This document shows, piece after piece, positions 21,223 to 29,022 of a stretch of DNA of 33,299 bases. The stretch is from Myxococcota bacterium (GTDB taxonomy: Bacteria; Myxococcota; XYA12-FULL-58-9; JASMKV01). Position 1 is the first letter of the stretch. Each line of letters opens with the position of its first letter. Location: positions 1 to 33,299 of the forward strand of contig JASMKV010000417.1 in the NCBI GenBank assembly GCA_030749035.1, read 5' to 3'. Below the pieces are notes generated by a model. That model worked only from the letters and a program-made list of their open reading frames with translations. It was not told the DNA's origin and did no database searches. The position numbers were made by a program, and so were the translations under genes.

Positions 21223-22617
21223 TCATGATTCACCTTCGAGTTCAGACTTCTCTTTTGTGTGCCCCTGCACACCGGATTGGGGGCTGGGATCATGATCCAG
21301 ATGTCTAAAGAGGTCGCGTACGATTTCCAGGCGCTCCAGGCCGTTTTCGGCTTGTTTGGCATAAGATTTTATCGAGACCATAGGGCCATGCATAATTTTG
21401 TTGACGATTGCCCGGGTTGCTTCATTAAGCGTTTCTTGACCTTCTTTGTCGAGATGCGCATTGTATTTTTCAATCTCTTCTTGCCGGATTTTTTCAATGG
21501 CATCTTTGAGCGTTAATATAAATGGCGCTGCATTTAATTGGTTTTGCCAATCTTTTAGCTTTTTAATTTCCTTTTGAATGATTTCTTCAACCAAAGGAAT
21601 TTCTTTTTTACGAAGCGCCAGATTATGATCGACCACTCGGCCTAAGGCGGAGATGTCATGCACGAAAGTATTGGGGCGTAGATTAACGTCTTTGGCAATA
21701 TTACGCGGCAAGCCTAAGTCGATTAAGGCCAAAGGCCGATTTTCGACATTTTGTCGGCAAGATTCCAGAAGCGTTTTGTTGATGATGGGGCTGTCGGTTT
21801 TTATTGTGCTTACAATAATATTGGCTTTTTTAAGCCCATCCGAAATGTTTTCTAAAGGAATGAAATCACCTTGCACCTGCATGGCTAATTGCTGGCCTCT
21901 TTCCGGGCTTCTGTTTGCAATCGTTATTTTCCCTGCGCCCTTTTGGACAAAGTGCTCAGCCACCAATCGACCAGTATCTCCAGCGCCAATAACTAAAATA
22001 TGTTGCTTGCTTAAATCGCTATAAATACGTTGGCATAGTTGAACGGCAGCAGATGCGATTGACACAGCTCCCGCACCGATGTCGGTCCGCACTCTGCACT
22101 CTTTTGCTGCTTTGAAGGCATGTCTTGTGATGGCCTCAAAAGCAGGGCTCATTTGTGTGTAAGATTGTCTGCGCGCCAGCGCACTTTTCATTTGACCCGT
22201 GATTTGGGCCTCTCCAACAATCATGGAGTCGAGCCCGCAGGCCACGCGAAAAAGGTGTTGTACGCTTTCCGTGCCAAACTTTTCATACCAATGGGATTTC
22301 TGGGGAAACCGGTGGTCACCAACAACTTTTTCAAGCGTTGTTGCGAGTGTTGCGGCACAGTTCTTTTCTTCTTGGGCCAGGCAATAAATTTCTGTTCTAT
22401 TGCAGGTTGAAACGATGAAAGAATCTTTAAATAGATGTTCTGAATGTGTGTCGTCAGAGATTGATAGAAGTTGATAAAAATTGTCTATTTCTTGATCGCT
22501 AAGCGCCACTTTTTCAAGAATATCAATCGGTGTACTTTTAATATTGACGCCGATCATTGAAAAACGATTCAATGAGGGAAAAGAGGCATGGATTTCCGAA
22601 GTTTCTTGTTGGCTCAT
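21223..22617 (-). CDS. hemA: Glutamyl-tRNA reductase
   Basis: The 464-aa protein catalyses the first committed step of the C5 tetrapyrrole pathway, reducing glutamyl-tRNA to glutamate semialdehyde. The catalytic Cys72 is in STCNRTEIYC, the substrate region reads GLDSMIVGEAQITGQMKSA, and the NADPH-binding loop is LVIGAGDTGRLVAEHF near 206. The C-terminal helical dimerisation domain is present. In the usual N-terminal motif GxNHKxAP the His is replaced (GVNIKSTP). The ATG overlaps the hemX stop in an ATGA, so translation is probably coupled. A hemA on the C5 route fits a proteobacterium outside the alpha class. Confidence 0.95.
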   Translation of the reverse strand: MSQQETSEIHASFPSLNRFSMIGVNIKSTPIDILEKVALSDQEIDNFYQLLSISDDTHSEHLFKDSFIVSTCNRTEIYCLAQEEKNCAATLATTLEKVVGDHRFPQKSHWYEKFGTESVQHLFRVACGLDSMIVGEAQITGQMKSALARRQSYTQMSPAFEAITRHAFKAAKECRVRTDIGAGAVSIASAAVQLCQRIYSDLSKQHILVIGAGDTGRLVAEHFVQKGAGKITIANRSPERGQQLAMQVQGDFIPLENISDGLKKANIIVSTIKTDSPIINKTLLESCRQNVENRPLALIDLGLPRNIAKDVNLRPNTFVHDISALGRVVDHNLALRKKEIPLVEEIIQKEIKKLKDWQNQLNAAPFILTLKDAIEKIRQEEIEKYNAHLDKEGQETLNEATRAIVNKIMHGPMVSIKSYAKQAENGLERLEIVRDLFRHLDHDPSPQSGVQGHTKEKSELEGES

Positions 22618-25201: not shown

Positions 25202-25978
25202 ATGATGAAGCGAGATACTTCTAGCAGGATAAGCCTGGCAGGACAAAGGATCTTGATCACCAGACCGCAAGCGCAGTCTGAGGCTTTGGGCGCATTGCTC
25301 GTGGCCGCTGATGCCGAGGTGGTGGTCTTGCCTTTACTCGAGGTGCATGGCTTGCGCACCGATGAACTGCCCATTAACCTTAAGAAAATAGAGCAAAAAC
25401 AGTATGATACCCTTCTGTTCACATCTGCGAATGCGGTGCGTTTTTTTCTCACACAAGCTTCTGAGCTTGGTTATGACGCCACCTTTTTAAAAGAGCAGCA
25501 GATTTATGCTTTGGGGAGGCAAACCCAGGAGCAACTAAATCGCCTTGGTTGCGCATCTTATTGTGATGACCGCGTACGCAGCTCTGAAGATTTTTTAAGA
25601 ATGTTGATCAATGCTTTTGCAGATGCATTGCCGGGGCAGCATTTTTTTTGGCCACGTGCCTTAAGGGTTCGCGATGTTTTGGCCCAAGGTTTGCGCGAAC
25701 AAGGGGCCCAATGCAGCGAGTGTGTTGTTTATGAAACCCTGGCAATAAAAACAGAAGAGCCTCTGCCAGAGCATTTGGATTGGGTCGTTTTTTCGAGTCC
25801 TTCAGCCATAGACGCGTTTGTAAATGCCTTCAGCACACTTCCCAAAGTACACTATGCTTGTATCGGTGAGGTGAGTGCGCGTCGCCTGCAGGAAGAGGGG
25901 GTTTCTTGTCATGTGATCGCGAAGGAGCCGAGTAACGAAGGCCTGGTTGCGGCGATTATAGATTATCTTTGCCAGTAA
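25202..25978 (+). CDS. hemD: Uroporphyrinogen-III synthase
   Basis: The 258-aa protein shows the two-lobed HemD pattern. It has [20 protein letters not shown] at 11-30, [24 protein letters not shown] at about 80-94, [16 protein letters not shown], the second-lobe [50 protein letters not shown] and [17 protein letters not shown]. It closes and inverts hydroxymethylbilane to uroporphyrinogen III, the branch point to haem, sirohaem and B12. HemD sequences diverge strongly, but the motif order is convincing. Two adjacent ATGs (25202, 25205) are possible starts. Its 3' end overlaps moaC tail-to-tail by 16 bp. Confidence 0.9.
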
Positions 25979-26442
25979 CCACTTTGGCCACCATCTTTTT
26001 CCAGGAGCCTTAAATCGTTGATCTCCATGGATTTGTCGACAGCTTTGAGCATGTCATAAATCGTCAGGGCAGCAATGCTGGCGGCACATAAAGCTTCCAT
26101 TTCAGCCCCCGTTTTTCCTTCACTGCGGACAAGGCTTTGAATGCGAATGGATTCAGGCTCTACATCAAGTTGGATTTCAACGTGCTGCAATTGGATATTG
26201 TGGCATAGGGGAATTAAATCTGAGGTTTTTTTTGCCGCTTGAATGCCGGCAATACGCGCGGTGGCCAGAACATCACCTTTTTTATTTTGTCCGGCGATAA
26301 GGGCCTGATGTGCAAGGCTGCTGATGCTGATTTTCGCTTCAGCTCTTGCTGTGCGTGTGCTCACGGGCTTATCCCCAACATCAACCATATGCACTTGCCC
26401 ATTTTGATTGATATGGGTCAGAAGTTTTTTTGCGTCAGACAT
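25963..26442 (-). CDS. moaC: Cyclic pyranopterin monophosphate synthase (molybdenum cofactor)
   Basis: The 159-aa protein matches MoaC in length (E. coli 161). It has the family signatures [16 protein letters not shown] at 19-34, [15 protein letters not shown] at 71-85 and [28 protein letters not shown] at 112-139, with the catalytic Asp130 and Lys133. With MoaA it converts GTP to cyclic pyranopterin monophosphate. No other moa gene is in the window. The ATG at 26442 is preferred, with GAAGAG about 8 nt upstream; the longer reading to 26481 has no ribosome site. Its start codon touches the -35 box proposed for the divergent riboswitch transcript. Confidence 0.94.
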
Positions 26443-26443
26443 A

Positions 26444-26472
26444 TTTACACTCTTCATATCTATTGCTAATAC
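26444..26472 (+). promoter_or_regulatory. Candidate promoter of the cobalamin riboswitch transcript
   Basis: TTTACA (26444-26449, five of six matches to TTGACA), a 17-nt spacer, then TAATAC (26467-26472) preceded by TGC as an extended -10. It predicts transcription starting near 26479, right at the 5' side of riboswitch stem P1. The -10 hexamer is only a partial match. Confidence 0.45.
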
Positions 26473-26474
26473 AA

Positions 26475-26660
26475 AGCGCAACGTCTAAGGCGCGAGGAAG
26501 TCCGGTGCGTTTTGTGTGAACAAATCCGGCGCTGCCCCCGCAACTGTTATTGGTGACGAACCTGATAAAGCCACTGATCGTTGGGATTGGGAAGGAGTCA
26601 GGGGAGATGAAGCCATAAGCCAGGAGATTCGGCCTTAGGAGGAATAACAACGTTTCGGGT
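26475..26660 (+). ncRNA. Cobalamin (B12) riboswitch aptamer
   Basis: The core signatures of the cobalamin class occur in order. GGAAGTCCGGTG (26506-26517) and AATCCGG (26523-26529) form the first conserved stem, followed directly by GCGCTGCCCCCGCAACTGT (to 26546). GCCACTG begins at 26570, GGGAAGG falls near 26589, and the B12 box AGCCATAAGCCAGGAGA begins near 26610. CGCAACGT (26477-26484) pairs with ACGTTTCG (26650-26657), with one mismatch, to close P1. It should bind adenosylcobalamin or another cobalamin and repress the downstream genes. It is divergent from moaC and faces the two lipoprotein genes. Confidence 0.95.
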
Positions 26661-26667
26661 GGAAGCG

Positions 26668-26723
26668 CGAGTTCAATTGACTTTTTGATGTCATGACTCG
26701 TTTGCTCCTTCGAATAAAAGGAG
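26668..26723 (+). promoter_or_regulatory. Riboswitch expression platform with SD-sequestering hairpin
   Basis: Downstream of the aptamer are two hairpins. The first pairs CGAGTT (26668-26673) with GACTCG (26695-26700), extended by TGAC/GTCA. The second pairs CTCCTT (26705-26710) with AAGGAG (26718-26723) around a 7-nt loop. The second stem buries the ribosome site GGAG, 7 nt ahead of the ATG at 26731. No T run follows either stem, so control is probably at translation. Confidence 0.6.
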
Positions 26724-26730
26724 AACCTCA

Positions 26731-27171
26731 ATGAAATTATCAGATGTTAAAGCGGCGGGCTTTTTGTTTTTAAGTGGTCTTTTGCTCCTGAGCGCTTGTG
26801 GCGCTGATGCAGAACTTGAAATTTTAGGCAGCTGGAAGAGCAATTATGATGCTCTGGAAAAAATAGATGCAACAAGCTGGACTTCAACAAGCAGTGGGGT
26901 CACCACGACCTATAGTATGGTCAAGTTTGATAATGAGGCCAATATGGTGATCACACAAAATGCCTCCGACGCAAGTTACGATCCAGATAAATTTAATAAG
27001 ATTGTTTGGACTGACATTGTTGAAGACACGTTCTACTATTGCATGGTCGATTACTCGAAAGAGACTGCCGAACTGGCTGAAACGTCGACCGCCAGCGCTG
27101 ACGCCAGCGATCCTGAAAATTCTGGTTGCGGTGGATTTGCCTGGACTCAATTAACCACGCACGTTGAGTAG
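26731..27171 (+). CDS. Riboswitch-controlled lipoprotein, unknown function
   Basis: The 146-aa protein has a clear lipoprotein signal ending LLLLSAC (Cys23). The mature part starts GADAELEILGSWKSNYDALE. The GSW motif followed by beta-type stretches (TTTYSMVKFDNEANMVITQ, FNKIVWTDIVEDTFYYCMVDY) suggests a small lipocalin-like barrel, but that is an impression. Two mature-region Cys (in YYCMVDY and SGCGGFAW) could form a disulfide. An acidic, Ala/Ser-rich stretch lies between them. It is the first gene behind the B12 riboswitch, with GGAG 7 nt before the ATG, so a role in cobalamin capture, cobalt handling or a B12-independent substitute function is inferred. I do not recognise a named family. 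Confidence 0.85.
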   Translation: MKLSDVKAAGFLFLSGLLLLSACGADAELEILGSWKSNYDALEKIDATSWTSTSSGVTTTYSMVKFDNEANMVITQNASDASYDPDKFNKIVWTDIVEDTFYYCMVDYSKETAELAETSTASADASDPENSGCGGFAWTQLTTHVE

Positions 27172-27185
27172 ACCAAATTTTACCG

Positions 27186-27866
27186 ATGGCTTTTATGCGC
27201 TTCTTTTGTACTCTCTGGATGCTCTTATGGCTGGGCTGTGGCCCAAGCGCGGTTGACTCGCCTGCTTTATCGCAAGAACGTGTTGATTATCGTCTTTATC
27301 CTTATGCCCAGGCTGTGGTGGAATTTAATCCCGGCCCCGAATCAGGATTTGGCCAGGAACTTTTTCCTGAAATTGTTTTGGGGCCACCCCAAGGATTTGG
27401 TCCAGCGCAAGGTTCTGTTGATGTACTCAGTTTGGGGGTTGCTGGGGAAATTATATTGGATTTTTTTCCTCGGGAAATGATTGATGGCGAGGGGGCCGAT
27501 TTTGCGGTTTTTGAAAATGTTTTTTGGCCAGGAAACGACAGCAGCAACCCCTGGAAGGAATTGGCAGAGATCTCTGTGAGTGATGATGGTGAAAACTGGC
27601 ACACTTTCACTTGTGTGCAGGAAAATTCGATCATCGGTGAATGGCCCGGCTGTGCGGGATGGCGGCCAACGCATTCTTATACGCCGCAGACAGAGTCACT
27701 CGACCCCGATATGAGTGGCGGTGACCTTTTTGACCTTGCCGAGCTTGGTTTAACCCATGCGCGTTATGTTAAAATTCAAGACTTGGGACAAGGTGGAGCG
27801 GCACCAAGTGCGGGTTTTGATTTGGATGCGGTTGGCCTGATTCATTTTGAAGAGCTTACGGACTAA
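27186..27866 (+). CDS. Riboswitch-controlled cell-surface lipoprotein, unknown function
   Basis: The 226-aa protein has a short hydrophobic signal (FFCTLWMLLWLGC, Cys18), probably a lipoprotein. Its mature part contains DFAVFENVFW (about residues 100-109), AEISVSDDGENWHTFTC, PTHSYTPQ, and GGDLFDLAELGLTHARYVKIQDL near 180, then GFDLDAVGLIH. This pattern is familiar from surface proteins with a discoidin-like beta-sandwich. I recall relatives near cobalamin-uptake genes, but I could not check that. It begins 14 bp after the first lipoprotein gene without a clear ribosome site, so it is probably translated from the same B12-controlled mRNA. An ATG at 27195 is a possible alternative start. Confidence 0.85.
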   Translation: MAFMRFFCTLWMLLWLGCGPSAVDSPALSQERVDYRLYPYAQAVVEFNPGPESGFGQELFPEIVLGPPQGFGPAQGSVDVLSLGVAGEIILDFFPREMIDGEGADFAVFENVFWPGNDSSNPWKELAEISVSDDGENWHTFTCVQENSIIGEWPGCAGWRPTHSYTPQTESLDPDMSGGDLFDLAELGLTHARYVKIQDLGQGGAAPSAGFDLDAVGLIHFEELTD

Positions 27867-27897: not shown

Positions 27898-29022
27898 TTA
27901 TTTTTTGGGCATCAGTTTAAGTAATTTTCCTTGGTAGTAGGCAAGAATATAGAGTTCATTATTCAAGTCTTGGGCAAAAGAAGCGATATGATATGAGCTT
28001 TGCATAAGCATGTTGATGCCAAGCTGTTTTTCAGGGTCAAAATGAAAAATACGTCCTGATACAAAATCAGCAAAAATATATTGTCCGACAAGATGTTTCA
28101 TGGCCTTTCCTCTGTAGACATATCCACCAGTGATCGATTTATCACCGCGCTTTTGTGGGTATTGCGCCACAGGCTCTGTGAGCCCCGTCTTTTTGCATCG
28201 CTTTTTTTTATAACACTCTTTCCCTTCCATAATATTCCAGCCATAATTTTTTCCCGATTGAATCACATCAATTTCCTCCCTGCGGTTTTGCCCGACATCG
28301 CCAGCCCAGAGTTTTCCGGTCAGTTGATCGAAGTGAAATCGCCACGGGTTTCTTAGCCCCCAGGCAAAAATTTCAGGACGGTAAGGAGTATGAATGAAAG
28401 GGTTATCGGCGGGAATAGCATATGGTTTTTTACGGACATCGATCCTTAAAATATTGCCCAGTAAGGATTGCCGGTTTTGGGCGTTTCCTTTTGGATCGCC
28501 CCCAGAGCCGCCATCGCCAAGGCCAATATAGAGAAACCCATCGGGACCAAAGGTGATATGACCACCATTGTGATTGCCATAGGGCTGCTCTACTTCAAGA
28601 ATGATTTCCTCAGACGCTTGATCGAGTTGACCACGTGCCGTGCAACAGCGCATGCGCGATATTCGTGAGAGAAAAGGTTTTTCACCACTGGTATAAGAAA
28701 GATAAATATAAGGCTGAGTTGGGTATTGTGGGTCAAAATCAAAACCCAACAACCCCGCTTCACCATGCCGTTGACTGTTGAGGCGTTTATCCAGGGTTAA
28801 AAAGTTGTATTGGGCAGAGTTTGGTTGCCATTTAATGAGTTCTCCACCTCTTTGCGCCACATACCAGACATTCGGTTCAGAAGGGTGTTGTCGGGCAGCG
28901 ACGGGTTGCTTGAAGGCAGCAGCAGTGATGTCCAAAAGCTCTATGTGTGCTTGCGCAGTCCGAGGCTCAAAGGAGTTCAAGCATAAAAAAAGCGACACCA
29001 AAGATAAAAAGTTTTTAGTCAT
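27898..29022 (-). CDS. PQQ-type sugar dehydrogenase / aldose sugar dehydrogenase-like protein
   Basis: The 374-aa protein has a signal peptide (FLSLVSLFLCLNSFEPRTAQA) and a six-bladed propeller pattern of the GSDH family. Visible signatures are HGEAGLLGFDFDPQY (86-100), NHNGGHITFGPDGFLYIGLGD (150-170, with His151 matching the catalytic His of soluble glucose dehydrogenase), WGLRNPWRFHFDQLTG, WAGDVGQNRREEIDVI and ITGGYVYRGKAM. Such enzymes oxidise aldose sugars in the periplasm using PQQ. No PQQ-synthesis gene is visible, so cofactor and substrate remain inferred; related HHIP-like proteins have other roles. The gene starts 2 bp after gpsA. Confidence 0.87.
   Translation of the reverse strand: MTKNFLSLVSLFLCLNSFEPRTAQAHIELLDITAAAFKQPVAARQHPSEPNVWYVAQRGGELIKWQPNSAQYNFLTLDKRLNSQRHGEAGLLGFDFDPQYPTQPYIYLSYTSGEKPFLSRISRMRCCTARGQLDQASEEIILEVEQPYGNHNGGHITFGPDGFLYIGLGDGGSGGDPKGNAQNRQSLLGNILRIDVRKKPYAIPADNPFIHTPYRPEIFAWGLRNPWRFHFDQLTGKLWAGDVGQNRREEIDVIQSGKNYGWNIMEGKECYKKKRCKKTGLTEPVAQYPQKRGDKSITGGYVYRGKAMKHLVGQYIFADFVSGRIFHFDPEKQLGINMLMQSSYHIASFAQDLNNELYILAYYQGKLLKLMPKK

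Follow-up and report, generated by a model that had tools for sequence, protein, structure and literature searches.

A solitary cobalamin riboswitch upstream of two small lipoprotein genes with a probable role in B12 capture in a Myxococcota bacterium

To our knowledge, surface lipoproteins that capture vitamin B12 are understood in detail only in gut Bacteroides. Among these, BtuH proteins are defined by picomolar cobamide binding. BtuH (BtuH1, BtuH2 and a domain of BtuG1; PDB 7BIZ, 8BLW) is a riboswitch-linked surface lipoprotein encoded beside BtuB, and BtuG, a YncE-like propeller that forms the lid of BtuB, is a surface lipoprotein accessory to the same uptake system. The two meet in the Bacteroides BtuB1-BtuG1 complex (8BLW), where a BtuH domain forms the C-terminal part of BtuG1 (PMC10404256). 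A further group, DUF4465/BtuJ (IPR027828; PDB 9FCT, 9I2L, 9HMU), consists of jelly-roll B12-binding lipoproteins whose genomic neighbours, in Myxococcota as elsewhere, are of the same kind as those described below for protein B (PMC13398666).

Here we describe a 33,299-nucleotide stretch of DNA from a Myxococcota bacterium (the window), in which a cobalamin riboswitch stands before two small genes, A and B (Table 1). We put at about 0.78 the probability that their products are accessory capture lipoproteins of outer-membrane cobalamin uptake, made only under B12 shortage, a reading drawn from sequence comparison, structure prediction and analogy with Bacteroides. Loci of the B family resemble those of BtuH in placing a riboswitch-linked, probably surface-exposed lipoprotein beside a BtuB-like receptor, and the two proteins share the core SLG-GG-I-F ... 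DF ... N-x-F ... E-x-G-x-V. Unlike BtuH, however, B consists of one domain with neither Ig/PKD nor propeller parts, is only remotely similar in sequence, occurs outside Bacteroidota and is partnered by A, and the unit in the window has a riboswitch but no BtuB. BtuG differs in fold from both A and B, which come in addition to it; a BtuG-like propeller lies 3' of the TonB receptor both in the host genome and in B operons. The preliminary description of this locus, made from the sequence alone, had suggested an undescribed surface system for cobalamin capture or cobalamin response. Our analysis supports such a system, but not a wholly new principle, since the surface lipoproteins BtuG, BtuH and BtuJ of Bacteroides already work in this way.

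The riboswitch and its two-gene unit

Both strands of the window were scanned against 4227 Rfam families, and the only match up to E 0.5 was the cobalamin aptamer RF00174, which is complete over the model, retains the conserved core and far exceeds the curated cut-off of 31.5 bits. The aptamer had been proposed from motif order, with a covariance scan as the check; that scan is strongly positive, and a scan of all contigs showed the match to be unique in the whole genome. The unit as first delimited stands, except that its proposed start (26475) falls 4 bases inside the aptamer model.

Genes A and B are separated by 14 bases. Because a convergent propeller gene closes the unit on one side and a divergent moaC on the other, no known B12 gene is part of the unit. 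As the preliminary description had noted, it has no btuB, btuFCD, cob/cbi, metE or nrd gene, and the transcript holds A and B only. Its designation of both products as lipoproteins holds well for A, which has a good lipobox (LLSAC/G), and less cleanly for B, whose lipobox is imperfect (WLGC/G), though relatives of B have ordinary lipoprotein signals. The window also contains hemA (glutamyl-tRNA reductase) and hemD (uroporphyrinogen-III synthase) upstream of the riboswitch; these probably belong to the heme pathway and are unrelated to the riboswitch unit.

The candidate promoter, too weak for a consensus scan, would start transcription near 26479. A terminator search between the aptamer and gene A found no transcription terminator that could act as expression platform, and the layout of this region suggests a translational OFF switch instead. 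The anti-Shine-Dalgarno segment is complementary to the Shine-Dalgarno sequence of gene A and could alternatively pair with the 3' strand of P1; computed duplex energies are -10.4 kcal/mol for P1/anti-Shine-Dalgarno versus -8.2 kcal/mol for anti-Shine-Dalgarno/Shine-Dalgarno. The region as a whole folds no better than shuffled sequences (z 0.24), and the anti-Shine-Dalgarno hairpin is not above chance folding. With adenosylcobalamin or a related cobamide in plentiful supply, the riboswitch would close, the Shine-Dalgarno sequence of gene A would be held in the hairpin, and A and B would not be made; under B12 shortage, the 3' strand of P1 would pair with the anti-Shine-Dalgarno segment and free translation.

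Table 1 Features of the riboswitch unit and its neighbours (window coordinates)
Feature	Position	Strand	Basis
hemA (glutamyl-tRNA reductase)	21226-22617		
hemD (uroporphyrinogen-III synthase)	25205-25978		
moaC (cyclic pyranopterin monophosphate synthase), divergent	25963-26442	-	NF006870, 217 bits, above cut-off; ATG at 26442
Candidate extended -10 promoter (TTTACA, 17 nt, TGcTAATAC)	26444-26472	+	Predicted by reading the sequence
Cobalamin riboswitch aptamer (RF00174)	26471-26651	+	Rfam covariance scan, 82.7 bits, E 3.9e-19, model positions 1-189 complete
Candidate expression platform	26637-26723	+	P1 3' strand, anti-Shine-Dalgarno, Shine-Dalgarno
3' strand of P1 (AGGAGG)	26637-26642	+	Part of candidate expression platform
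Anti-Shine-Dalgarno (CTCCTT)	26705-26710	+	Complementary to gene A Shine-Dalgarno; alternative pairing with AGGAGG of P1
Shine-Dalgarno (AAAAGGAG)	26716-26723	+	Gene A ribosome site in candidate platform
Gene A, 146-aa lipoprotein, one domain of about 109 aa, LIC13354-like	26731-27171	+	Sub-cut-off NF047669 match, lipobox
Gene B, 226-aa lipoprotein, LIC_13355-like, predicted BtuH-like fold	27186-27866	+	Sub-cut-off NF033170 match, predicted structure
Convergent glucose/sorbosone dehydrogenase-family beta-propeller gene (PF07995)	27898-29022	-	E 1.7e-45

Genomic linkage of the two families to B12

A phylum search found B in 96 of 195 genomes. Scanning genome contigs with the single B sequence returned nothing; a profile scan of GTDB contigs yielded at least 509 relatives, and 79 B loci were taken from it. 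Nine riboswitches of B loci served to build a covariance model, which found 66 matches at E < 1e-7 in the 835 kb of these loci; with one to five cobalamin riboswitches per genome among the matches listed, we estimate that chance would supply well under one. Sixty of the matches are found upstream of a B gene that has the same orientation, and these account for 56 of the 79 loci; of the remaining six, four stand before a second cassette further downstream. The riboswitch-linked loci belong to Myxococcota and to records named Planctomycetes, KSB1, WOR-3 and Binatia. In 23 loci no riboswitch was detected, for which a contig end accounts in several cases, not in all. Rfam's own cobalamin model confirmed 11 of 13 rechecked loci. 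Seventeen B genes begin within 350 bases of the riboswitch, while the others mostly leave space for one gene.

Clustering of the neighbours in the 79 loci identified TonB receptors in 25; BtuC-like permeases and BtuF-like binding proteins each occur in 7. For the receptors of two examined loci the top-ranked model was TonB-B12/BtuB, with all scores below cut-off, and one locus (L151) has the order riboswitch, B, TonB receptor, BtuG-like propeller. The tabulation of neighbours proposed in the preliminary description thus bore out its expectation of a B12 link, placing relatives from several phyla behind cobalamin riboswitches and beside BtuB-, BtuC- and BtuF-type genes.

Other arrangements were seen in these loci. 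In Myxococcaceae (L069-L118, e.g. L078:1892-3403) a lipoprotein of about 500 aa, with no match in Pfam or NCBIfam, is encoded between the riboswitch and B (21 genes in 16 loci), sometimes in duplicated cassettes. A Rieske [2Fe-2S] lipoprotein with a Tat signal lies directly 3' of B in 11 loci (e.g. L096:6573-7112, L050:9658-10134), and at L095:5426-5773 two cobalamin riboswitch matches diverge, one facing A and the other B.

Family A shows a linkage of its own. Its relatives were found in 17 genomes in a separate phylum search. Within the B loci 20 of 21 stand beside B on the same strand, nearly all directly upstream, and there the domain of about 109 aa occurs singly or in tandem, with up to three copies per protein. 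In two cases the proteins are fused: L154:5062-6732 encodes a 556-aa A-B fusion in the order riboswitch, fusion, TonB receptor, BtuG-like propeller, and L156:10489-11847 has fusion, receptor and propeller in that order at a contig end. Judging by the fusions and shared operons, A and B act jointly with the receptor, and the association of both families with B12, through riboswitches, TonB receptors and fusions, is strong. Genes for A also occur directly behind cobalamin riboswitches where no B adjoins (L148, L149, L150, L152, L153 and L155; L157 is an exception), and L149:8484-9465 contains two successive cobalamin riboswitches, each with its own A gene.

What A itself does is less clearly indicated. 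The predicted structure is a small beta-barrel (pLDDT 92) with two invariant cysteines; a structure search found avidin- and lipocalin-like barrels, with no match below E 0.1 (best E 0.13), and comparison with PDB sequences returned chance nanobody matches only. The genomic linkage suggests a role for A in B12 biology, in which the small barrel lipoprotein would act together with B. Within this reading it is conceivable, at somewhat less than even odds, that only B captures the ligand, whereas A itself lacks a cobamide site and serves as sensor, chaperone or structural partner, as the weakness of the fold matches and the want of a B12-binding relative would suggest; yet A genes without B behind riboswitches, twice over in L149, and tandem A domains elsewhere fit a binding protein better.

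The fold of B and its relation to BtuH

No Pfam family scored above cut-off for A or B. The nearest curated families come from Leptospira: A matched NF047669 (the LIC13354 exoprotein family) at 29.6 bits (E 7.8e-7; curated cut-off 130 bits), and B matched NF033170 (the LIC_13355 family) at 33.4 bits (E 2.6e-8; curated cut-off 120 bits), as did 66 of the 67 members of the B alignment at E < 0.01. The scores of B indicate superfamily kinship to NF033170, not membership as curated. To the Pfam discoidin family F5/8 type C, B scored 15.3 bits (E 0.023), below the gathering score of 28.2. The discoidin-like pattern first read in B is therefore weak by sequence, but the predicted fold does fall in the discoidin neighbourhood.

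The AlphaFold2 model of B (67 sequences) is one confident domain (pLDDT 90, pTM 0.83). Compared by Foldseek with 350,542 PDB chains, it matched 8blw_B (BtuG1) first, at E 9.1e-5, followed by F5/8 type C and CBM32 domains; the superposition on 8blw_B is poor (query TM 0.46, rmsd 12.9, over a long alignment). The structure and profile search that had been suggested for the second protein thus led to a known B12-binding domain, BtuH, as its closest structural relative. The same chain came first, at a weak E of 0.13, when a profile of the 67 B proteins was compared with 177,635 PDB sequences, and the match, of about 60 residues, fell within the BtuH domain (residues 434-498). This fragment of 8blw_B in turn retrieved BtuH2 (7biz, E 7e-7) through the stretch YDFCVQGNAFDGSSEPGIVWVMQD, which corresponds to DFxVFENPF...ExGxVxVS of B. 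Both the BtuG1 and the BtuH2 fragment outscored 10,000 shuffled versions of themselves against the B profile, and hhalign gave 91.5% for B versus BtuH, with 27% identity in 55 aligned columns. Because the superposition is poor and the two fragments do not count as independent evidence, kinship with BtuH is only probable: B is probably a remote homologue of BtuH, short of proven membership.

In BtuH2, Asn399 contacts the phosphate of B12 and Phe401 the lower ligand (PMC8941943). Assuming an offset of 100 in the chain numbering, the two residues correspond to N and F in GNAF and align with the invariant Asn111 and near-invariant Phe113 in the VFENxF motif of B; no position in B could be mapped to the other contacts Tyr510, Trp511, Trp577, His476 and Gln333. 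By analogy with BtuH2, lipid-anchored B may thus bind cobamides at the cell surface through a BtuH-like jelly-roll/discoidin-type domain, with Asn111 and Phe113 in the binding site.

The same fold comparison could be read differently, with A and B responding to B12 and not binding it: they would be surface adhesins or carbohydrate-binding proteins of discoidin/CBM32 type, and B12 starvation would alter attachment or prey contact. The F5/8 type C and CBM32 structures that rank after BtuG1 and the Pfam E of 0.023 would suit such proteins, as would the binding of laminin, plasminogen and endothelial cells reported for LIC_13355 (PMC11891782). We consider this unlikely, given that a B12-binding domain tops both the structure and the sequence searches with B and that BtuB-, BtuC-, BtuF- and BtuG-like genes are often in the same loci; the Leptospira protein, moreover, was refolded from inclusion bodies (PMC11891782).

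DUF4465/BtuJ was considered as the family of B because the C-terminal motifs are alike, and was rejected: none of the 67 members has a Pfam match to it, and it is absent from the listed structure matches. The likeness is a vague one between the HI loop TPAYFALDDI and GFDLDAV at the end of B, and the tyrosine of TPAYF, 97% conserved in DUF4465 (PMC13398666), corresponds in an alignment by eye to a glycine in GFDLDAV.

Uptake in the host and the Leptospira pair

The host genome (Myxococcota, 3.97 Mb, 98% complete, 527 contigs) has candidates for the rest of an uptake route. One contig (C117, L143:3763-6932) encodes a TonB receptor and, behind it, a propeller lipoprotein, both homologous to those of a B locus, L117 (BLAST E 1e-32 and 9e-25, from single comparisons). 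A PDB search with the host propeller alone returned nothing; its family profile reaches BtuG structures weakly (E about 0.002). No riboswitch was detected for this BtuB-like receptor and BtuG-like propeller, in contrast to their relatives in L151 and L154. BtuC and BtuF, the latter recognized by reading the sequence, lie together on contig C316, a 1224-aa MetH is encoded on contig C329, and further B12-binding domains occur in the genome. No CobB/CobQ amidotransferase scored over cut-off in the host genome, and only one tetrapyrrole methylase was found, too few for de novo B12 synthesis. Together, the uptake genes, MetH and the missing biosynthesis markers make the host look like a B12 scavenger that keeps capture lipoproteins behind the riboswitch and the receptor elsewhere. 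The ligand would be handed from A and B to the BtuB-like receptor and BtuG-like propeller encoded at that other site, then to BtuF/BtuC, for use by MetH and other B12 enzymes.

For the host receptor the siderophore receptor model MxcH scored first and TonB-B12 second, a weak ranking because all scores are far below cut-off. Taken at face value, together with the Rieske-type lipoprotein 3' of B in Myxococcaceae, it would let A and B capture another compound needed in B12 shortage (heme, iron or a cobalt compound) for a TonB receptor not specific for B12. Such a role seems very improbable to us: in two other B loci the top-ranked receptor model is TonB-B12, BtuF and BtuC are among the neighbours, and B matches BtuH.

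Beyond Myxococcota, capture by A and B bears on the L. interrogans proteins LIC13354 and LIC_13355 (NF047669, NF033170), which belong to the same two superfamilies and are neighbours by locus number. Their current descriptions are hypothetical exoprotein and adhesin, respectively, and A and B score far under the curated cut-offs of the two families. The consecutive locus numbers suggest that the A-B pairing is probably ancient. In cells implanted in rats the two increased in parallel, LIC13354 by 3.77-fold and LIC13355 by 3.72-fold (PMC3953431). In recombinant form LIC_13355 bound laminin, plasminogen and endothelial cells (PMC11891782); the available text of these papers names no B12 link. 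In the open literature we found no paper tying LIC_13355 to BtuH and no description of the B family as B12-related in Myxococcota.

More tentatively, and with the odds leaning slightly against it, we propose that B (single-domain, BtuH-related and present in several phyla) and A (a small beta-barrel with no relative known to us) represent two new classes of surface cobamide-binding lipoprotein that form a two-part capture module, fused in some species, and that the Leptospira pair is such a module. What is new here is a single-domain form that occurs in several phyla, together with its partner family A, the A-B fusions and the link to the Leptospira pair. If capture by A and B is correct, surface B12 capture would also be a trait of predators and environmental bacteria from several phyla, protein family B and the new family A would gain a function, the target of solitary cobalamin riboswitches in myxobacteria would be explained, and a spirochaete lipoprotein now called an adhesin, LIC_13355, would have a testable alternative function.
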